DNA from: Sandaracinus sp.
Lineage (GTDB): Bacteria; Myxococcota_A; Polyangia; Polyangiales; Houyiibacteriaceae
Assembly (NCBI GenBank): GCA_002699025.1
Contig: PABA01000235.1
Coordinates: 1-64,000, forward strand
Direction of reading: 5' to 3'
DNA: 64,000 nucleotides
The notes below the pieces were generated by a model that made no database searches, was not told where the DNA came from, and saw only the letters and a list, made by a program, of their open reading frames with translations. Below, piece after piece: positions 8,696 through 56,120 of the stretch; the stretch's first letter is position 1, and each line of letters opens with the position of its first letter. The position numbers and the translations under genes are program-made.

Positions 8696-9862
8696 ATGAC
8701 GCTCCTCCTCGTCTACATCGGCATCGCCCTCGGCTTCAGCTTCCTCTGCTCGATCCTCGAGGCGGTGCTCCTCAGCGTGACGCCCTCCTACGCGGCCCAG
8801 CTCGAGGAGGAGAGTCCGAAGGTCGGCGCTGCCCTGAAGGCCATGAAGGCGAACGTGGACCGCCCCCTCGCGGCGATCCTCAGCCTGAACACCATCGCCC
8901 ACACGATCGGCGCGGCGGGCGCCGGCGCGCAGGCGCAGGTCGTCTTCGGGAGCCAGTGGCTGGGCGTGGCCTCGGCCGTGCTCACGCTGCTCATCCTCGT
9001 GGTCTCGGAGATCATCCCGAAGACCATCGGCGCCGTGTACTGGCGGCGGCTGGCGCCCTTCTCGGCGCGCATCCTGCCCTGGATGATCAAGGCGCTCATC
9101 CCGCTGGTGCTGATGAGCGAGCTGATCACGAAGGCCATGAAGGCGCGGCACCACGGCACGACGATCTCGAAGGAGGAGATCGCGGCGCTGGCGCGGCTCG
9201 GGGAGGAGCAGGGCGTCTTCGACGCGAAGGAGTCGCGCGTCCTGACCAACCTCTTCCGCATCGGCTCGCTTCGCGCGCGCGACATCATGACGCCGCGCAC
9301 CGTGATGTTCGCGCTCCCGGCGACGACGCGCGTCGGCGATCTGGTCCCGCGGGGCGCGCGGGAGACGGGCGAGGACGACACGCGGCAGCGGAGCACGATG
9401 GTCTTCAGCCGCATCCCCGTGTACCAGGACTCGCTCGACGACATCATCGGCTACGTGCTCAAGGACGAGCTCTTCCTGAAGGCCGCGCAGAACGAGCTCG
9501 ACCGGCCCGTCTCCGGGCTGGTGCGCGAGCTCCACGTGGTGCCCGACACGCTGCCCGTGGCGACGCTCTTCGAGCAGCTCGTCGAGACGCGCGAGCACCT
9601 GGCCCTGGTCGTCGACGAGTACGGGGGCGTCGACGGCATCGTCACCATGGAGGACGTGATCGAGACGCTGCTCGGCCTGGAGATCGTCGACGAGGCGGAC
9701 CGCACCGTGGACATGCGCGAGATGGCGCGGCGCCGCTGGCGCGAGCGGCGCAAGAAGATGGGCACGATCCCGCCGCCCCCGGGGGACCCGACGGGCGCGG
9801 GCGAGGGCGAGGCCGCTCCCGATCCGAAGGAGGCGCCGGCCGTGGAAGGAGGCGGCGCGTGA
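8696..9862 (+). CDS. CNNM (DUF21) membrane protein with paired CBS domains
   Basis: The protein belongs to the CNNM/HlyC/CorC-associated family, thought to act in magnesium or cobalt efflux or transport regulation. The N-terminal third has three to four hydrophobic helices, beginning LLLVYIGIALGFSFLCSILEAVLLS, with the family signature SLNTIAHTIGAAGAGAQA. Two CBS motifs follow: RIPVYQDSLDDIIGYVLKDELF and LALVVDEYGGVDGIVTMED, which bind adenine nucleotides. The usual C-terminal CorC/HlyC domain is absent; the protein ends in a charged tail (388 residues). Its stop overlaps the start of the next gene by 4 nt (GTGA), so the two are translationally coupled. Confidence 0.85.
   Translation: MTLLLVYIGIALGFSFLCSILEAVLLSVTPSYAAQLEEESPKVGAALKAMKANVDRPLAAILSLNTIAHTIGAAGAGAQAQVVFGSQWLGVASAVLTLLILVVSEIIPKTIGAVYWRRLAPFSARILPWMIKALIPLVLMSELITKAMKARHHGTTISKEEIAALARLGEEQGVFDAKESRVLTNLFRIGSLRARDIMTPRTVMFALPATTRVGDLVPRGARETGEDDTRQRSTMVFSRIPVYQDSLDDIIGYVLKDELFLKAAQNELDRPVSGLVRELHVVPDTLPVATLFEQLVETREHLALVVDEYGGVDGIVTMEDVIETLLGLEIVDEADRTVDMREMARRRWRERRKKMGTIPPPPGDPTGAGEGEAAPDPKEAPAVEGGGA
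9846..9852 (+). promoter_or_regulatory. Ribosome binding site fixing a GTG start
   Basis: AAGGAGG lies 6 nt before the GTG at 9859 and inside the end of the CNNM gene. This near-perfect site fixes the start of the DUF4178 gene. Confidence 0.75.
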
Positions 9863-32151: not shown

Positions 32152-34382
32152 TGCGGGGCGTTCCGATGCGGCCTCGTGGCTCGGTGCGGCGCGGCTCGGT
32201 GCGGCGCGGCTCGGTGCGGCGCGACTCGGTGCGGCGCGGATCGATGCTCCCTCGCCGGTCGCTCGGCGTGGAGGGCGTCCTCGGCGTGCTGGCGCTCGCG
32301 TTCCTCGCGGGGTGCTCGCTGCTGAACGCGCCGGACGAGGACCTGCTCGAGGCGGACGCGGGCATGGACGGCGGCTTCGACGCGGGGGACGGAGGCGACG
32401 CCGGCGACGCGGGGGACGGAGGCGACGCGGGCGATGGAGGGGACGCGGGCGACGCCTGGGTGCCGCCGCCGGAGGACTGCGACAACGGCGTCGACGACGA
32501 CGAGGACGGCCTCGTGGACTGCGAGGACTTCGAGTGCGCCGAGGCGGAGGGCGCGGCCTGCTGCGGCGTGGTCGACACGCCCCTGCTCGCGCTGAGCGCC
32601 TGGCCCCCGGACCTGACGGCGGACTGGAGCTCGAGCCGGCCGGCGGACGACATCTACCCGCGCGTCGACGGCGGGCGCCTCGTGGAGTTCGACGACCCGG
32701 AGCCCTTCGCGGCGGTCTGGGAGGACTGCGTCCCGCTCGCCCTCGGCGCGAGCTTCGAGGCGCGCTTCCGGCCGCTGGGCCCGGACGGGCACGGCTGCGA
32801 GGAGGGCGGGCGCTGCGAGGACTTCGCGGCCTGGGTGCTCAGCCCGGTGGAGGCGCAGCTGGCTGGCGCCCGGCTCCTCGACGAGGTCGCCGTGACCGTC
32901 TTCGCGAACGGCCGGCTCGAGGTCACGCAGGCCGGCGACGTCTTGGCGAGCGAGGCGCTCGAGCCGCTGGCGGTCGGCGACTACGTGATGACGGCGACGC
33001 TCACGCCGACCGTGCGCATGGACGGGCGCGCGGGGCTCCAGGTGGCCGTGGAGGTCGTGAGCTCGCGCGGGGGGGCGCCCGTCTTCGAGTGGGTCGGCGC
33101 GCCCATCGAGCTCGCGAACCTGATCGACGACGCGCTCGGCTGCCGGCAGGTGCCGGGGCTCTTCCTGGCGTTCGAGGGGCGCGGGGACGGAACCGAGGTC
33201 GGCGAGCGGGTGCGCGTGGAGCCGCTCGAGTGCGTGAACCCGAGCCAGTTCGAGCAGACGCTGCGGCCGCTCACGGCGGGGGAGGTCGCGGGGGCGGAGA
33301 CGGCGAGCCTCGGCTTCGAGCCGCCGCCCGGGACGGGCACGGGGATCTCCTGGGCCGACGAGGCGATCCGCGCGCCGACGCTGCTGGGCACCGGCGAGCC
33401 GGGGAGCGAGCAGTGGCACGTGATGGTCGAGGGGACGAACGACCAGCCCGAGCTCGAGCTCAGCGTGCGCGTGGGCTACGCGATCGGGCACGCCTTCGAG
33501 GACGTGGACCGCTGGAACACGGACGAGTGGAGCGACAGCTCGGGCGTGCCGCGGCTCGGGGCGCAGCCGCCCTCCTGCGCCGACATGAGCTGCCCGGGGG
33601 AGCCGCCGGCGACGAGCTATCGCGAGCCCTACCTCTTCGAGACCGAGGACGGGAGCCGCTTCGTCGCGTTCGCCGTGGAGCTCGGGGAGGCGAGCGAGGT
33701 CTTCGGGCTGGCCTACGCGGAGGCGGATGGGCTCGGGCGGATCGCGTCGAGCTTCATGCTGCTCGAGCCGGGCGACGTGGCGGCGCTGAGCGAGGACGGG
33801 GCGAGCTGCCGGTCGCTGCGGGACCCGGCGATCGTGCCGCGGGCGGGGATGGGCGGGCGCTACTGGCTCTTCTTCACCTGCGAGACGGAGGGAGGGTCGA
33901 CGATTCGGGCGCAGGCGCTCCGCTCGAACCTCGGGCCGCTCGAGCCGGACGAGAGCGTGGAGGGCGTGGAGGTGCTGCCCGGCGGGCTCGAGCTCGGGGA
34001 GTTCGCGCGGGACGGGGTGTACGGGCCGGAGCTGATCGTCGACCCGCAGCGGGGCGAGGTGAACCCGGTCTTCCGGCTGTGGTTCCTCGGGCGCTCCAAC
34101 CTGGCGGGCGCGAGCGTGGGGCTGGCGGTCGGTCAGGCGAAGGGGGCGGCGAGCGAGCTGCCGGACTTCCAGGCCTACCCGGCGAACCCGGTGCTCCGGC
34201 CGACCGATCGGGCGCTCCGCTCCTGCGCCGAGTGCACGATCCAGGGCTTCGCGGTCGCGCGGCATCCGGACGACGTGGGGGCGCTGCGCTTCCTCTTCGG
34301 GCTGCGCGTGCCGGAGGCCGATGGGCGGCGCTACGAGCTCCTGCCGCTCGACCAGCCCTGGCGGCCGGAGGCGGCCGAGTGA
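32151..34382 (+). CDS. Cys-rich lipoprotein with propeller-like C-terminus (paralog 1 of 4)
   Basis: The 743-residue protein has an N-terminus with four xSVRR repeats (residues 10-29), then a signal sequence with lipobox LAGC at about residue 55. A DAGDGG-type linker of about 30 residues leads to an acidic Cys module: CDNGVDDDEDGLVDC, CAEAEGAACC. The middle resembles a concanavalin-like lectin fold. The C-terminal half has segments like RDPAIVPRAGMGGRYWLFFTCETEGG and YGPELIVDPQRGEVNPVFRLWFLG, which recall five-bladed propellers of the GH43/GH32 type; no catalytic residues can be assigned. It starts in the PEGA gene stop. ATGs at 32166 and 32244 are alternatives. Confidence 0.65.
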   Translation: MRGVPMRPRGSVRRGSVRRGSVRRDSVRRGSMLPRRSLGVEGVLGVLALAFLAGCSLLNAPDEDLLEADAGMDGGFDAGDGGDAGDAGDGGDAGDGGDAGDAWVPPPEDCDNGVDDDEDGLVDCEDFECAEAEGAACCGVVDTPLLALSAWPPDLTADWSSSRPADDIYPRVDGGRLVEFDDPEPFAAVWEDCVPLALGASFEARFRPLGPDGHGCEEGGRCEDFAAWVLSPVEAQLAGARLLDEVAVTVFANGRLEVTQAGDVLASEALEPLAVGDYVMTATLTPTVRMDGRAGLQVAVEVVSSRGGAPVFEWVGAPIELANLIDDALGCRQVPGLFLAFEGRGDGTEVGERVRVEPLECVNPSQFEQTLRPLTAGEVAGAETASLGFEPPPGTGTGISWADEAIRAPTLLGTGEPGSEQWHVMVEGTNDQPELELSVRVGYAIGHAFEDVDRWNTDEWSDSSGVPRLGAQPPSCADMSCPGEPPATSYREPYLFETEDGSRFVAFAVELGEASEVFGLAYAEADGLGRIASSFMLLEPGDVAALSEDGASCRSLRDPAIVPRAGMGGRYWLFFTCETEGGSTIRAQALRSNLGPLEPDESVEGVEVLPGGLELGEFARDGVYGPELIVDPQRGEVNPVFRLWFLGRSNLAGASVGLAVGQAKGAASELPDFQAYPANPVLRPTDRALRSCAECTIQGFAVARHPDDVGALRFLFGLRVPEADGRRYELLPLDQPWRPEAAE
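32178..32237. repeat. Four 15-bp tandem repeats in a lipoprotein signal region
   Basis: The unit GGCTCGGTGCGGCGC occurs four times (the fourth begins GACTC). It encodes GSVRR and DSVRR in the positively charged n-region, before the hydrophobic part of the signal peptide. The repeat adds two Arg per copy and keeps the frame. Confidence 0.9.
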
Positions 34383-36142
34383 GCGCGGGGGCCCGGGGGG
34401 CGCTCTTCGTCGCCGCGATGCTGGTGGGCTGCGCGGCGTTGGACGAGGGGCCGAGCGGGGCCGGGGGCGATGGGGGGCCCGGGGACCTGGCGCGGGACGG
34501 CGGCGGGGGACTCGCGGACGCGGGGGTGCCGTCGATCGACGCGGGGGCGGCCGAGCCCTCGCCGGGGGTGCCCGCCGATCCGGACCGCTCGGGGGACTTC
34601 TCGGAGGCGCCGCCTTCGGGCGTCGACGGGGCGGGAGACGTCGCCGGGCGGCGCTCTTGCTACGACGGCGCGGACAACGACGGGGAGGGCGGCGAGGACT
34701 GCGAGGACCCGGGCTGCGAGGGGCTGGCGAGCTGCTGCGTGGGCGACGGGGATTGCTGCGGGCCGGACCCGGCGGCGGTGGCGCTCGGGGGGTCGTACGT
34801 CGGCTGCGCGGATGCGGAGAGCTGCCTGCGCGCGGAGGACGTGCCCTTCGGCGAGGGGGTGCGGGGGAGCGCGCGGGGGATCGTGCCGGCGGGGGACGCG
34901 GGGGGCGATGGGGGCTTCGCGTTCGGGGCCTTCGACCTCTCGACGCGGCGGGTGGTGCTGGACGCGGTGATCGATCCGGCGACGGAGTGTGGCGTGGGGT
35001 GCCTCGAGACGCTGGGCGTGGGCGTGGGCGTGGCGGCGCCGCCGAGCGGGTCCGGGCAGGTGGTCTCGGCGTCGGTGGCGCTCGTGTACGCGGGGGCGCG
35101 GGACGAGGTGGGGCTGCAGCTCGGGGATCGGCTCGTGCGGCGGGTGGCGCGGGAGGGGGCGACCGAGTGGGGGCTCGTGCTCCGGCCGACCGGGGCCGTG
35201 GCGCTGACGCGGGGTGGGGTGAGCGTCGTGGAGGTCGCGGGGGCGTTCGCGCCCGGGCCGGCGGTGGGGCTGGTGTACGGGCGGAGCCGGAACCCGGGGG
35301 CCACGGCGCCGGCGCCGGTCGCGCTGGCGTCGCTGGGGGTGGAGACGGAGCTCTGCGACGTGCCGGGGACCTGGCGCGAGCGGCGGGCGCTCGGGCAGAC
35401 CGGGGAGGCGCCGAGCCTGGCGCGGCGGGATGGGGAGACGTGGATCGCGTGGGCCGAGGCGGGGGCGCTGCGCGTGGCGCGGGAGGGCGTCGAGGGGGCG
35501 CTCGAGCGGCTCGAGGGGCCGGTCGTGGACGCGGCCTGGGCGGCCGGGGGCGTCGGGGATCCGGAGCTCTGGCCGGGGGAGGAAGGCTGGGAGCTCTACT
35601 TCACCGCGCGGGGGGCGGACGGGACGTCGGAGATCGGTCACGCGGCGCTCGGGGAGGGGGGCTGGGAGGTCGAGCGGCTCGGGATCGGGGGGGCGGCGCC
35701 GACGGTGGCGGAGGCCGGGGATGGGACGCGCGTCTTGCTGGTGCGCGATGCGGCGGCCTGGCGGGTGTACACGGGGGCCGGGGGCGCGTGGGCGGCGCTC
35801 GGCGGGAGCGACCTCGACGTGGTGACGGCGCCGGCGGAGGACGAGGTGCTCGGCGGGGCGTCCCTGGTGGTGCACGACGGGGCCTGGCAGCTGCATCTGG
35901 CGCGGCGGCGGGGGACGCGCTGGCGGGTGGCGCTCTATGCGTCCGACGAGCTGGTCGCGTGGCGGCCGCTCGGGGTGGGGCTCGAGGGGGACGGCGAGGG
36001 CTTCGACCGGCTGGGGGTGCGGGCCGTGGACGTGTGGGCCGAGGGGCCGCGGCTCGAGGCCGTGTACGTGGGCGACGACGGGCAGGGTGGCGCGGCGCTC
36101 GGGCGGACCTGGCGCCCGGCCACGGACCAGGGGTCGCGCTGA
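34379..36142 (+). CDS. Cys-rich lipoprotein with propeller-like C-terminus (paralog 2 of 4)
   Basis: The 587-residue protein has a signal peptide with lipobox LVGC, a Gly/Asp-rich linker, then the family Cys module SCYDGADNDGEGGEDC...GLASCCVGDGDCC. A conserved middle motif reads YGRSRNPGATA, and the C-terminus has LARRRGTRWRVALYASDELVAWR. The segments GDPELWPGEEGWELYFTARG suggest propeller blades. It shares these motifs with the two downstream paralogs more closely than with the upstream one. The GTG start overlaps the previous stop (GTGA). The DNA is extremely G-rich. Function unknown; a surface binding protein is inferred. Confidence 0.65.
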   Translation: MSAGARGALFVAAMLVGCAALDEGPSGAGGDGGPGDLARDGGGGLADAGVPSIDAGAAEPSPGVPADPDRSGDFSEAPPSGVDGAGDVAGRRSCYDGADNDGEGGEDCEDPGCEGLASCCVGDGDCCGPDPAAVALGGSYVGCADAESCLRAEDVPFGEGVRGSARGIVPAGDAGGDGGFAFGAFDLSTRRVVLDAVIDPATECGVGCLETLGVGVGVAAPPSGSGQVVSASVALVYAGARDEVGLQLGDRLVRRVAREGATEWGLVLRPTGAVALTRGGVSVVEVAGAFAPGPAVGLVYGRSRNPGATAPAPVALASLGVETELCDVPGTWRERRALGQTGEAPSLARRDGETWIAWAEAGALRVAREGVEGALERLEGPVVDAAWAAGGVGDPELWPGEEGWELYFTARGADGTSEIGHAALGEGGWEVERLGIGGAAPTVAEAGDGTRVLLVRDAAAWRVYTGAGGAWAALGGSDLDVVTAPAEDEVLGGASLVVHDGAWQLHLARRRGTRWRVALYASDELVAWRPLGVGLEGDGEGFDRLGVRAVDVWAEGPRLEAVYVGDDGQGGAALGRTWRPATDQGSR

Positions 36143-36829
36143 GAGCTCCCGGCGCGCGGGCCCGAGCTCGTGCTGTCGTGGGTCCCGCCGTGGCTCCGGC
36201 CCTGGGGGACCGGGCCGAGGTCCGTTCGGGCGCGGACGCCGCCCGGGAGTCCTGCGGACGCCGCCCGGGAGTCCTGCGGGCGCCGCCCGGGAGTCCTGCG
36301 GACGCCGCCCGGGAGTCCTGCGGACGCCGCCCGGGAGTCCTGCGGACGCCGCCCGGGAGTCCTGCGGACGCCAGCCCGGGAGTCCTGCGGGCGCCAACTC
36401 GGAGTCCTGCGGACGCCGCCCGGGAGTCCTGCGGACGCCAGCCCGGGAGTCCTGCGGGCGCCAACCCGGAGTCCTGCGGACGCAGTTTCGAGCGGGGCTG
36501 AGATGACGCAGGGTAAGCCACTGGAATTGTTGGATTCACCTTCGAAGCGGGGAGGAGGTGAAGGGCTGGCTGGTATCGTTCGTGATTGTCTCGTTCGGAT
36601 TTGTTGAACGAAGCGGGCGTATGTTCGACGGGTGGGTGAAACGAGATGGCGAGGCGGGGCTCCGGCCCGCGGGCGAGGGCGGATGGGCGCGGGGCCGCCA
36701 GCGCGCGGCCGCGGGAAGGCGCGTTCGGATCGTGGCTGCGCGGATCCGCCCCGGGATGGGCGGGCTGGCACGGCGTGGCACGCTGGGGCGGCCCTCGCCT
36801 CTGGTACGGCGCGTGAATAAGCTACGAGC
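36143..36829. other. 687-nt gap with a 22-bp tandem array and a less GC-rich tail
   Basis: No convincing gene is present. The left half holds the 22-bp array described separately. From about 36500 to 36640 the sequence is visibly less GC-rich (for example GGAATTGTTGGATTC, CGTTCGTGATTGTCTCGTT), which fits a promoter region for the lipoprotein pair downstream. A 107-codon ORF at 36558 lacks family features and is not called. Confidence 0.6.
36231..36485. repeat. 22-bp tandem array, about 11 copies
   Basis: The unit GCCCGGGAGTCCTGCGGACGCC repeats head to tail with a 22-bp period from 36241 (units at 36241, 36263, 36285, 36307, 36329, 36351), then with 1-nt slips and small changes (AACTCGGAGT, AACCCGGAGT) up to about 36485. 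Each unit contains GTCC-TGC-GGAC, a small inverted repeat. The period is two helical turns. There are no spacers. Confidence 0.9.
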
Positions 36830-38608
36830 GTGCGTCTCCTCCTCCCGCTGCTCGCAGTCGCGCTCGGATGCGCCGGCCTGAGCGAGCCCCTCTCCCGCGA
36901 TGACGGCGGAGACGGCGGCGCGTCGCCGGCCGACGCGGGCAGTCCCGTCGAGCAGCAGGACGGGGGGCCGGGCATGGGGCTGGACGCCGGCGCCGGCGCG
37001 GACGCGGGGCCGAGCGTGCCCGCCTTCGAGGGCATCCCCGCCGATCCGGAGCGGTTCCTGGACGGCGCCGCCGAGGACCCGAGCCTCGGCGCCACACCCG
37101 GGGCCGGCCGCGCGACCTGCTACGACGAGCTCGACAACGACGGCTTCGGCGGGCTCGACTGCGCCGTGGATCGCTGCCGGGCCCTCGCCTCCTGCTGCGT
37201 CGACGCGGGCGACTGCTGCGCCCCCATGGGCGCCGAGGCGCCGCTCCCCGCAGAGCTCGTCTTCGACTGCGGCGACGCGCCCCTCGAGAGCTGCCTCGCC
37301 GTCGAGCCCTTCGGCCAGCCGCGGCCCTTCGTGGACGACGCGGCCCTCGCCTTCGGTGGCGACGCCGAGTTCGACAGCGGCCTCCTCGTCGGCGCGCCCG
37401 TGGACCTCCGCACCACGCGCGTCCGCGTGGGCGCCCGCTTCGCGCACGGGGCCTGCGAGGGGAGCTGCCTCGAGAGCGCGGCGATGGGCTTCACGGCGCA
37501 GGCCGCGCTCGACGACGAGACCCATGTGCGGCCCCTGGTGGCGCTCCAGCTCTCGCCCTCCCGCGAGGCGGCCCACGTGCTGGTCGGCGACGCCGTGGTC
37601 GCGCGCCTCCCGCTCGGTGAGGAGGAGGCGCGCTGGGAGCTCGAGCTCCGGCCGACGGGGGAGGCCTTCGTCTGGCGGGACGAGACGCAGCTCGCCCGGG
37701 TCCGCTACGCGACCGTGCGCGAGGCGCGCCTCGTGCTCTGGGGCCACAGTCGCAACCCGGGGGCGACGGACGTCCAGCGCGCCCGCCTGCTCGAGCTCGA
37801 CGCGAGCGCCGAGCGCTGCGGCATGGCCGACGCCTGGGAGGGGCCGAGCGAGCTCGGGCTCGACGCCGTCTCCGAGCCGGCCCGGGTGTCGGTGGTCGAG
37901 GCCGCCGGCGCGCGCTGGATGCTGGTGCTCGGCGAGGGCTCGGGCGCGGACCTCTTCCGCGACGACGCCGCCGTGGAGGCCGCGGCGCTCCCGGAGGGGG
38001 CGAGGGAGGCGACGCTCGCGGCCGGCCCGAGCGGAGAGCTCGAGCTCTGGTACCTCGCCGGCCCGGACGCGCGCCTTCACCGGGCGCCCTGGACCGAGGC
38101 CGAGGGCGCGGCCGGCTGGGGCGAGGCCGAGGACGTGGGCGCGCCGCTCCCGGAAGGTTTCGCGGCGCCGAGCGTGCTCCATCACCGCGGCCACGAGATC
38201 GTCGTCGCCGAGGGGGCCGGCGGCCTCGTGCTCCTCGCGCGCGGCCCGGCGACGATGGGCGCCTGGCGCGACCTCTCGGAGGGCCTCGGGGGCGTGCCCG
38301 CGGGCGCTCGCGCGCCGAGCCTGATCGTCCACGGCGACGCCTACCTCCTCCACTACGGGACCCGCAGCGGCACGCGCTGGTACGTGGGCCTCCTCGCGAG
38401 CGACGAGCTCCTCGCCTGGCGCGACGTGGGCGCGCGGGTCTTCGCCGGCGGCGCGGCCTTCGACGCACGCGGCGCCAGCGCCCCGAGCGTGCTCTCCGAG
38501 GGCGACGCGCTCCGGCTCCACTACGTCGCGCACGACGGCGTCACCCGCCACCTCGCCACGACGCGCCGGGTCGCGCCGCGGGCTGCCCGCTTCGAGGAGG
38601 CCTCGTGA
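36830..38608 (+). CDS. Cys-rich lipoprotein with propeller-like C-terminus (paralog 3 of 4)
   Basis: The 592-residue protein starts with a short signal peptide and a lipobox-like ALGC, then an Asp/Gly-rich linker. The Cys module is TCYDELDNDGFGGLDC...ALASCCVDAGDCC. The middle shows WGHSRNPGATD and the C-terminus LHYGTRSGTRWYVGLLASDELLAWR, in the same order as in paralogs 2 and 4. Blade-like stretches such as GELELWYLAGPDARLHRAPW are present. The GTG at 36830 begins right at the signal peptide; no clear Shine-Dalgarno is seen. Its stop overlaps the next gene (GTGA). Confidence 0.65.
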   Translation: MRLLLPLLAVALGCAGLSEPLSRDDGGDGGASPADAGSPVEQQDGGPGMGLDAGAGADAGPSVPAFEGIPADPERFLDGAAEDPSLGATPGAGRATCYDELDNDGFGGLDCAVDRCRALASCCVDAGDCCAPMGAEAPLPAELVFDCGDAPLESCLAVEPFGQPRPFVDDAALAFGGDAEFDSGLLVGAPVDLRTTRVRVGARFAHGACEGSCLESAAMGFTAQAALDDETHVRPLVALQLSPSREAAHVLVGDAVVARLPLGEEEARWELELRPTGEAFVWRDETQLARVRYATVREARLVLWGHSRNPGATDVQRARLLELDASAERCGMADAWEGPSELGLDAVSEPARVSVVEAAGARWMLVLGEGSGADLFRDDAAVEAAALPEGAREATLAAGPSGELELWYLAGPDARLHRAPWTEAEGAAGWGEAEDVGAPLPEGFAAPSVLHHRGHEIVVAEGAGGLVLLARGPATMGAWRDLSEGLGGVPAGARAPSLIVHGDAYLLHYGTRSGTRWYVGLLASDELLAWRDVGARVFAGGAAFDARGASAPSVLSEGDALRLHYVAHDGVTRHLATTRRVAPRAARFEEAS

Positions 38609-42573: not shown

Positions 42574-42688
42574 GTGCTCCGGGTCTCGCGCGACCCGATC
42601 GGCCGACGTGTAGCATCCTCCAGGCGAGATGCGAGAGAAACCTCACAAATCCGCCCCCGAGCGCGACCGGCTGGGGGAGCATCCGGGG

Positions 42689-44467
42689 ATGCGCGCGCTC
42701 GCCCCGATCGCTCTCGTGCTGCTGCTCCTCGCCGCGGGCCCCGCGCGCGCGGACGAGACCCACTCCCAGACCTTCCTCATCGGCGAGCGCGCGCTCGGCA
42801 TGGGCGGCGCGGCGACGGGCGTCGGGGACGAGCCAGCGGCGGTGCTCTACAACCCGGCGGGCATCGCGCTGCTCACGGCGGACGCGGTCGGCGGGAACCT
42901 CTCGATCAACGCCTTCGACGAGCGCGAGATCGAGGGCGGCTACAGCACGCCCATCGGCCAGCGCGATCTCGTGGCCCGGAGCCGCCCCGGCGTGCCGCTC
43001 TTCGCGACGATGGTGAAGCGCTTCGGCCCGCGCGACGCGAACCGGGTGCGCCGCCACGCGCTCGCCTTCTCCACGCTGAACCCGGTGCAGCGCCGCCTCC
43101 GCTACGACGTCGACGTGCTCAACGAGGCGACGAACGTGCGCGAGACGCTGAGCATCGACCACGACGATCGCATCACCTACTTCGGGCCGAGCGTCGGCTT
43201 CCGGCTGCGCGACGACCTGGCCGTCGGGCTGAGCGCCTTCCTGGCGACGCGGCGGCTGCGGCATCGGGAGGACCAGATCGTCGTCACGGAGATCCGCTTC
43301 GACCCGGACACGGGGACCTTCGTGAACGACACGCTGAGCGTGCGCGAGAGCGTGGCGAGCCTGACGACGCGGCACGCGCTCTTCCGGCTGGGCGTCGCCT
43401 GGGAGCCGAGCGCGCGCTGGCGGCTCGGGCTGATGTTCCAGCCGCCGGGCATCGAGCTGACGGACTCGGCGCGCCTGCAGGACCGGCGGAGCTTCGCGGA
43501 CACGCTCGCGTCGCCGGCCTACGCGACCTACTTCAACGCGGACCAGGGCGGGCTCCCGGCGGCGTCGCCGATCCCCTGGGAGCTACGGATCGGGGCGAGC
43601 TGGGCGGCCACGCCGGCGCTCCTCTTCGCGGCGGACGTCTCGCTCTACGGGCGGAGCGGCGGACCCGACGAGCCCATCCGACCCTTCGGGACGCCGGAGC
43701 CGGACCCGGAGACGGGCGACCTGCCGCAGGCCGGGGACTACCTCGCGACGAGCTGGTACCGGCAGTACAACGTGAACGTCTCGGTGGGCATGGAGGGGGT
43801 GATCGCCGGGCGCGTGCCCGTGCGGCTCGGCTTCTTCACGGACCGGTCGAGCGCGCCGCCGATCGAGGGGCCGACCGACCGCTACCGGATCGAGCACGTG
43901 GACCGCTACGGGGCGACGGCGAGCGTGGGCTACCGGAGCGACGACTACGACCTGAGCGTGGGCGTGGCGGTGCTCTTCGGGCGGGGGGACGCGATGCGCG
44001 AGAACCCGCTGGCCGTGGATCCGATGGAGGCCTACGTGCCGACGGAGGTGCGGGACCGGACCGTCTATTTCTTCCTGAGCGGCGCGAAGCGGGCGGCGAG
44101 CCGGCTGGCGCGCGACGTGTATCGCGAGCGGGTGAGGCCGTGGATGCGCGGGCGCGGGGACGAGGAGCGGCCGGAGGGCGAGGGGGAGGAGCCGGCGGCG
44201 CCGGCGGAAGCGGAAGCCCCCGCCGAGGCTCCAGCCCCAGCCGAAGCTCCAGCCCCAGCCGAAGCTCCAGCCCCAGCCGAAGCTCCAGCCCCAGCCGACG
44301 CTCCAGCTCCAGCCGAAGCGGAAGCCCCAGCCGAAGCGGAAGCTCCAGCCCCAGCCGAAGCTCCAGCCTCAGCCGAAGCTCCAGCCTCAGCCGAAGCGGA
44401 AGCCCCAGCCGAAGCCGAAGCCGAAGCCCCCGCCGGAGCGAACGCCGAGGCCCGAGCGGGCGAGTGA
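42689..44467 (+). CDS. FadL/OmpP1-type outer-membrane beta-barrel protein
   Basis: The protein has a signal peptide ending ARA-DE, then GERALGMGGAATGVGDEPAAVLYNPAG, the N-terminal hatch signature of FadL/toluene-transport proteins that carry hydrophobic compounds across the outer membrane. The body has alternating barrel strands (for example FRLRDDLAVGLSAF, LRIGASWAATPALLFAADVSLYG). The last 75 residues are a tail of AP/AE repeats that follows the barrel, unusual because outer-membrane barrels normally end in a terminal Phe strand. The ATG at 42689 with GGGGGAG upstream puts the signal peptide at the very start; 42629 would add 20 residues. Confidence 0.75.
   Translation: MRALAPIALVLLLLAAGPARADETHSQTFLIGERALGMGGAATGVGDEPAAVLYNPAGIALLTADAVGGNLSINAFDEREIEGGYSTPIGQRDLVARSRPGVPLFATMVKRFGPRDANRVRRHALAFSTLNPVQRRLRYDVDVLNEATNVRETLSIDHDDRITYFGPSVGFRLRDDLAVGLSAFLATRRLRHREDQIVVTEIRFDPDTGTFVNDTLSVRESVASLTTRHALFRLGVAWEPSARWRLGLMFQPPGIELTDSARLQDRRSFADTLASPAYATYFNADQGGLPAASPIPWELRIGASWAATPALLFAADVSLYGRSGGPDEPIRPFGTPEPDPETGDLPQAGDYLATSWYRQYNVNVSVGMEGVIAGRVPVRLGFFTDRSSAPPIEGPTDRYRIEHVDRYGATASVGYRSDDYDLSVGVAVLFGRGDAMRENPLAVDPMEAYVPTEVRDRTVYFFLSGAKRAASRLARDVYRERVRPWMRGRGDEERPEGEGEEPAAPAEAEAPAEAPAPAEAPAPAEAPAPAEAPAPADAPAPAEAEAPAEAEAPAPAEAPASAEAPASAEAEAPAEAEAEAPAGANAEARAGE
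44215..44440. repeat. 18-bp-type Ala/Pro/Glu repeats at the end of the barrel gene
   Basis: Units such as GCTCCAGCCCCAGCCGAA (18 bp, APAPAE) repeat in frame through the 3' end of the barrel gene, mixed with 12-bp variants (GCGGAAGCCCCAGCC). They give a flexible Ala/Pro/Glu tail. Confidence 0.85.
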
Positions 44468-55948: not shown

Positions 55949-56120
55949 GCGCTCCCCTTCGCAGGGCGGGGACTTCGCCGCTTCGCGGCTGGTGCGCTCC
56001 CCTTCGCAGGGCGGTGACTTCGCCGCTTCGCGGCTGGTGCGCTCCCCTTAGCAGGGCGGTGACTTCGCCGCTTCGCGGCTGGTGCGCTTCCCTTTGCAGA
56101 GCGGGGCGCTTCGCGGCGGG
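55949..56120. repeat. 45-bp tandem repeats, three full copies and one partial
   Basis: Units start at 55949, 55994, 56039 and 56084, each beginning GCGCTCCCCTTCGCAGGG and containing ACTTCGCCGCTTCGCGGCTGG. The fourth copy diverges after about 20 nt. The period 45 keeps reading frames open, but no protein feature supports translation. Confidence 0.9.

Follow-up and report, generated by a model that had tools for sequence, protein, structure and literature searches.

Background

The BOX elements of Streptococcus pneumoniae are described as composite interspersed repeats, in which a variable tandem run of one module stands beside fixed modules (PMC3049150). In the part of that account dealing with location and origin, BOX elements are intergenic and over-represented between convergent genes, and the authors deem them parasitic. 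REP sequences and their BIME and REPIN arrangements are presented as many short palindromic extragenic units, forming composite arrays within one lineage (PMC2817692, PMC3116915). The CGTC-tagged REPs are characterized by an unpaired CGTC tag, loops of mostly 4-5 and CCA tails (PMC3733652). In its part on dispersal, a survey of prokaryote satellites gives transposed non-coding families of long repeats (over 30 nt in its table) only for Leptospira interrogans and Methanocella conradii; families whose repeats are short occur more often, some of them in one species only (PMC6749651).

Here we describe a tandem array in a 64,000-nucleotide stretch of DNA (the window) from a Sandaracinus sp. genome, and the repeat family to which it belongs. 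By its architecture this family is nearest to BOX elements and BIMEs. The likeness to BOX lies in the variable tandem run joined to fixed modules, and is one of architecture only, not of sequence. Unlike BOX as described, the present family exhibits a set core-to-dyad distance and several dyad types; the BOX RNA is predicted to fold (PMC3049150), whereas our family exhibits no structure signal. It shares with REP/BIME, as these are presented, the many short extragenic palindromic units confined to one lineage, but its cores run one way where REP/BIME units alternate. In contrast to RAYT-driven REPs, it comes with no Y1 transposase match and no visible hairpin constraint. Both the CGTC-tagged REPs and our family are short palindromes without a known dedicated transposase (PMC3733652), but the loop predicted for our core is 3, and no unpaired tag was seen. 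Terminal inverted repeats as in MITEs are absent from our type I copies, the modules of which are bounded by cores in direct orientation. Like the dispersed satellites of the survey, our repeat is scattered over a prokaryote genome, non-coding, and of a length that is not a multiple of 3 (PMC6749651); unlike the long satellites surveyed there, its unit is below 30 bp and a dyad module is linked to part of the copies.

The array in the window

Tandem Repeats Finder (TRF) reports a repeat at 36232-36483 with a period of 22, 11.4 copies, 90% matches and a score of 416. Within it we located 11 copies of GTCCTGCGG[A/G]C at 36249-36481 (eight as GTCCTGCGGAC, three as GTCCTGCGGGC), so that the tandem array of about 11 units announced by the original prediction is confirmed. 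The cores start at 36249, 36271, 36293, 36315, 36337, 36359, 36382, 36404, 36426, 36449 and 36471, and are spaced 22-23 bp (successive steps of 22, 22, 22, 22, 22, 23, 22, 22, 23 and 22 bp). The coordinates of the array and the features around it are collected in Table 1.

Table 1. Features at the array in the window (positions of the window; a dot marks a feature without strand).
Feature	Position	Strand	Remark
Upstream lipoprotein-like gene	34379..36142	+	stop 103 bp before the array
Tandem array, 11 units	36232..36484	+	17-bp core GGAGTCCTGCGG[A/G]CGCC plus spacer of 5-6 bp
Last core of the array	36471..36481	+	distance to the dyad is measured from here
Module downstream of the array	36486..36682	+	like its counterpart on contig 193 (L040)
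Box-like stretch CCACTGGAATTGTTGG	36518..36533	+	faintly like the type I box
Dyad TCGTTC-N9-GAACGA	36591..36611	.	120 bp from start of last core to start of dyad
Downstream lipoprotein-like gene	36830..38608	+	36% identical to the upstream lipoprotein-like gene

The array ends 345 bp before the start of the next gene. No sigma-70-like promoter and no T-run terminator were found between 36100 and 36900, and no tRNA and no Rfam family in the window. Judging from their sequences, the four genes around the array probably encode lipoproteins; none of the four exhibits a Pfam family. They had been taken for four paralogues, which holds for three of them (36% identity, E-value = 3e-47; 39% identity, E-value = 8e-66). 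The first gene, compared with the second gene only, exhibits a mere 35-residue local match (E-value = 0.002). A separate repeat in the window, at 44215-44457, closes the reading frame 42629-44467 with a stretch coding for AEAPAP-like residues.

A dispersed family in the host genome

The host genome (9.24 Mb in 238 contigs, 95.9% complete; the window lies on contig 8), which by its size, GC and kinase/PEGA genes may be that of a myxobacterium-like organism, contains 106 exact copies of GGAGTCCTGCGGRCGCC, far more than chance would give, against none of the reversed pattern. The corresponding numbers are 618 against 39 for exact GTCCTGCGGAC 11-mers, and 355 against 6 for tandem pairs. We read 80 stretches of this genome (1.24 Mb, GC 0.74), most of them chosen for holding matches and the rest being contig starts. 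They exhibit 78 arrays of at least 2 units (593 units); the 69 arrays of at least 3 units occupy 64 gene gaps in 55 stretches. A single family recurs at many unlinked places outside genes, as in a dispersed non-coding satellite. The genes next to the arrays look varied, as judged mostly by their first residues. A special tie between the array and the lipoprotein genes, ahead of a pair of which the original prediction had placed it, is thus not supported; the case is a warning that a tidy array ahead of a gene pair need not regulate that pair.

Eighteen exact cores stand alone; 16 of them have an array no more than 600 bp away, which in 15 cases is on their own strand. A core on the opposite strand within 200 bp was found for 4 of the 69 arrays, arrays being clustered per strand. 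Chance would put 3.1% of arrays within 600 bp of a contig end, yet 26 of the 69 stand that close. The counts of units and arrays are therefore probably lower bounds, and for the same reason the arrays may explain part of the fragmentation of the host assembly.

A check in relatives, proposed together with the original prediction, came out negative for conservation. The tandem pair occurs in none of the 182 other genomes of the order, the host being the one of 183 searched in which this short yet abundant unit is found. The 17-mer occurs in none of the 32 other genomes of the family, with no congener among the genomes searched; a diverged core would escape both searches. In a search of genome contigs, which may lack the window's own record and those closest to it, the tandem pattern was matched at four loci of Gammaproteobacteria (three genomes) and at one locus of Verrucomicrobiales. 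A 15-mer core was then counted in four genomes, three of which exhibit 9, 7 and 16 copies and one none; 22 of these 32 copies stand alone. The core matches outside Polyangiales may well be due to convergence. On the gammaproteobacterial contigs (L051-L053, L055) the core is GCGTCCTGCGGACGC, in 2-3 tandem units whose surroundings differ from those of the host genome. Viral contigs gave no match to the tandem pattern. A literature search did not find the core string, and a search on myxobacteria returned nothing.

Position relative to genes

Genes called with a simple codon-usage predictor take up 83% of the bases in the stretches read. Yet all of the 69 arrays are intergenic, save for an overlap of about 3 bp between one of them and the end of a gene. 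Array and upstream gene share a strand in 39 of 58 gaps, each gap being counted once (p = 0.012), or in 42 of 63 cases when arrays are counted; in the other 19 gaps the array runs against the upstream gene. When the strand is shared, the upstream stop codon precedes the array by a median of 47.5 bp. Both neighbours are present for 40 gaps. Convergent genes flank 13 of these (background 149 of 885; p = 0.018) and divergent genes 4 (background 154 of 885; p = 0.29).

Core, spacers and helical phase

Steps between units, counted over the family after cutting unit clusters at 60 bp, range from 14 to 58 bp, with 23 bp the most frequent (249 times), followed by 22 (78 times), 21 (41 times), 18-19 (36 times) and others. 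The predicted 22-bp period describes the window array, where the steps are 22 or 23, but is not kept across the family. Nor is there support for the proposal that a period of two helical turns places every site on one face of the helix. At 10.5 bp per turn the phase of the window units drifts through more than a full circle; little drift is expected at 11 bp per turn. Across the range from 10 to 11.5 bp per turn, the family steps favour no particular helical repeat (mean resultant 0.62-0.68). With variable steps and no helical repeat singled out, we reject strict helical phasing.

The inner core is kept better than the spacers. Positions 4-14 are constant at 96-99%, except positions 5 (93%) and 13 (89%). 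In 207 comparisons of adjacent units with equal step, units differ in 0-2% at positions 6, 9, 11, 12 and 14, in 2-4% at positions 4, 8 and 10, and in 7-11% at positions 5, 7 and 13, compared with 22% at position 3, 10-14% at positions 16 and 17, and 16% in the spacers. Conserved cores are more readily picked up at the search threshold used, but this does not cause the contrast among the inner positions. Spacer identity is 0.81 within arrays versus 0.48 between arrays. Since spacers are alike within arrays and unlike between them, units appear to multiply locally. That the array is bound by a sequence-specific protein, one of the two options in the original prediction, is plausible from these patterns: several inner core positions stay fixed while the spacers drift, and the core-dyad distance described below is fixed in related copies. 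The helical phasing from which the prediction had argued is itself not supported.

Modules and dyads behind the arrays

Sequences behind the arrays resemble each other more often than those in front. Among pairs of downstream flanks, 58 of 1639 exceed every shuffled pair, against 18 of 2004 pairs of upstream flanks. By these alignments 26 of 58 downstream flanks form one linked group, 2 form a pair and 30 stand alone; the grouping is single-link, by which module types run together. Inspection of the 58 arrays with at least 120 bp behind them reveals, within 200 bp, a type I dyad at 10, a type II dyad at 5, a type III dyad at 2, a type IV flank at 5, and none of these at 36. Dyads I-III or flank IV thus follow 22 of 58 arrays, against 3 of 69 in the upstream control. 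The composite build of array plus module is found in a minority of arrays.

The type I dyad TGACYNNGRGTCA occurs at 28 distinct places of the genome, all within the stretches read, against 0 for the control. A core with at most 1 mismatch is found within 200 bp of 27 of these 28 dyads (the strand with the nearer core being used), and the 28th has a weaker core at 117 bp. The core-dyad distance is exactly 117 bp in 18 cases (10 loci) and 105 bp in 3, with one case each at 104, 116, 126, 127, 148 and 26 bp. These sites are not all independent: three share one core (L021), some modules are near-identical tandem copies, and a type IV flank encloses one of them (L016). The type I body that links core and dyad is weakly alike from locus to locus (identity 0.41 versus 0.33 when shuffled), with the exception of a box near GCCAA...GAATTCATTGG. 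Type I modules can stand in series, each closed by one core, so that the loci read as [n]-I-[1], with n mostly 2 to 13 and single cores only at L063, L079 and L087.

Type II comprises GAACNTGACGTCAAGTTC-like dyads at five loci, with centres 120, 148, 148, 153 and 158 bp from the core. This spacing is less strict than that of type I, and the nearest core-like string at L030 is a poor one. The type II dyad at L057 is a perfect palindrome of 50 bp. Type IV is a flank of which one copy (561 bases) matches four others at 92-95% over 174-439 bases; these matches are the clearest sign of recent copying. All five copies adjoin an array and all, the query included, stop at contig ends. A sixth match, of 40 bases, is found on contig 100. 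The type IV reading frame exhibits no Pfam family. We considered a shuffling of cassettes between cores, and discarded it, as no locus mixes types I and II; the label "I+IV", which applies to L016 only, denotes a type I-like string within a type IV flank.

The array of the window belongs to type III. Its module aligns with that on contig 193 with a local score of 54.8, the best of 1639 shuffled pairs reaching 25.5. Both contain the dyad TCGTTC-N9-GAACGA, which on contig 193 stands 121 bp from the last core. This dyad occurs at four sites genome-wide, against none for the reversed control. The third site, on contig 56 (L104), has two core-like units, the nearer 115 bp upstream; the fourth has no cores and lies between a LysR-family gene and an HPPD-like gene. 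The window module exhibits no likeness to L104 (score 16.4 versus a null maximum of 25.1), which itself scores 37.8 versus 27.8 with L105. The orphan site L102 gives weak scores of 28.7 and 29.5 on the two strands versus null maxima of 23.4 and 21.1, on which we do not rely. L104 is perhaps a fifth module type: next to GTTTCAGGGTGAAAC-like dyads it has two copies of a variant core, GCCCTGCGGAC, at a distance of 88 bp. As for CCACTGGAATTGTTGG in the window, it differs from the type I box at 4 of 12 positions, and 13 of 64 upstream control flanks do equally well or better.

Nature of the element

We consider it probable that the array belongs to a family of composite, dispersed, non-coding repeats which, as far as the search reached, is confined to the host genome. 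In each copy a 17-bp core (GG[A/C]GTCCTGCGGACGCC, with spacers of mostly 1-7 bp) is repeated in tandem a variable number of times, and in about a third of the copies the cores are followed by a module of some 120-150 bp. Three of the four module types hold a dyad-symmetric site at a characteristic distance from the core, and type I modules are sometimes repeated and closed by one more core. This explanation builds on the observed dispersal, intergenic placement, contrast between core and spacer, fixed spacing of type I, and subfamilies, and on closely alike flanking modules at five places. We infer that the element spreads as a non-autonomous mobile repeat, by means of an enzyme acting in trans, after which slippage or unequal exchange would alter the count of core units at each locus. 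A protein that recognises the core as double-stranded DNA may be what keeps it constant, along with a second factor on the dyad. For type I, the TetR-family gene at L021 is a lead as a candidate for this second factor. By default, the element would be a parasite tolerated between genes, mostly behind stop codons. The exact spacing and the slowly changing core suggest a function, which pure parasitism does not need. Some copies follow a build rule, in which cores in variable number precede a dyad at a set distance, and this rule offers a handle for finding both the core-reading protein and the element-moving enzyme.

Two candidates for the origin of the family were set aside. The REP transposase family PF01797 has no match at an E-value of 0.001 in the host genome, the control detecting it in 5 of 14 reference genomes, and an origin through a REP transposase is rejected. 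Plasmid iterons would hardly suit arrays scattered over many contigs.

The same cores and dyads could instead make up a nucleoprotein element used by the host, with a dedicated DNA-binding protein on the cores working together with a regulator at the dyad, serving as an insulator, as a transcription roadblock after genes, or as a chromosome-organising site. We regard this as unlikely, although it accounts for several observations: the spacing of 117 or 105 bp kept across weakly alike sequence, the constraint on the inner core, the bias of arrays to the 3' ends of genes, and the type III dyad next to the LysR-family gene. It would also fit three TGACY-type dyads standing directly before a TetR-family gene at L021. 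However, among the TetR genes listed (150 of 180 candidates were scored) only 3 of 44 adjoin an array in the stretches read, and at L029 and L036 the genes on either side of the type I dyad are convergent. The varied neighbour genes and the lack of the tandem pair in the other genomes of the order also argue against a host-used element.

A further reading is more doubtful still. The repeat may spread ready-made regulator sites, its core being bound by a dedicated protein of the host or of the element, and the dyads of the subfamilies, set at a characteristic distance, would match operators of different host regulators (TetR-type for type I, LysR-type for type III of the window). If so, copies would put new sites behind and between genes all over the chromosome, or act as sinks for regulators.

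That the arrays are a neutral minisatellite, arising and expanding by slippage without mobility or constraint, is highly improbable. The spacers are indeed locus-specific, most arrays lack a known module, and the host genome is rich in other minisatellites: TRF lists 25 non-coding-like rows in 347 kb of the host versus 2 and 12 in 394 kb of two relatives, small samples of contig starts in which an analogous family is still possible. However, one core recurs at dozens of loci with fixed spacing to the dyads, and alike modules shared by unlinked loci, which such an origin would not lead one to expect, already disfavoured it. A further dispersed minisatellite, its unit about 45 bp long (GCTCCCCTTCGCAG..GACTTCGCCGC.TTCGCGGC), lies at 55949-56114 of the window, at about 108-255 of L072 and in L059. 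Its GACTTCGCCGC part is found in 3 of the 80 stretches and GCTCCCCTTCGCAG in 9.

Folding of RNA and DNA

A single unit can fold (-5.9 kcal/mol as RNA; -11.6 kcal/mol for the C3 variant). For the window array as a whole, neither strand folds better than shuffled sequences, be it as RNA (z = -0.56 and -0.03) or as DNA, with RNA and DNA values together spanning -0.56 to 0.84. Covariation is absent for the pairs 3-15, 5-13 and 7-11, and the pair 1-17 does worse than shuffles. The pairs 2-16 and 4-14 exhibit a slight excess, reached by 3 and 30 of 1000 shuffles in a count that ignores relatedness. For type I we aligned 20 of 31 modules, leaving aside near-identical tandem copies, L016, L021 (3), L062 and cut ones, with some right ends cut by hand. 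Their consensus fold contains no compensatory pair, and its best helix is not above column-shuffled controls.

The original prediction had offered structured RNA as the alternative to protein binding. With no fold excess, no convincing covariation and no Rfam match in the window, that part is not upheld, and we reject a structured RNA or a DNA hairpin for the array and the type I modules alike. Transcribed hairpins in 3' untranslated regions, stopping transcription or protecting mRNA, are accordingly the least probable explanation: the foldable unit, the short distance to same-strand stop codons and the two pairs slightly above shuffles would suit them, but not the ordinary folding of the array, the other pairs, the type I consensus, the lack of a T-run terminator at the window array, or the gaps in which the array opposes the upstream gene.

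Perfect palindromes of 50, 40 and 32 bp, which belong to type II, are found around GAACTTGACGTCAAGTTC, at L057 (about 9203-9252), L060 and L028. Their arms differ between the loci yet remain complementary.
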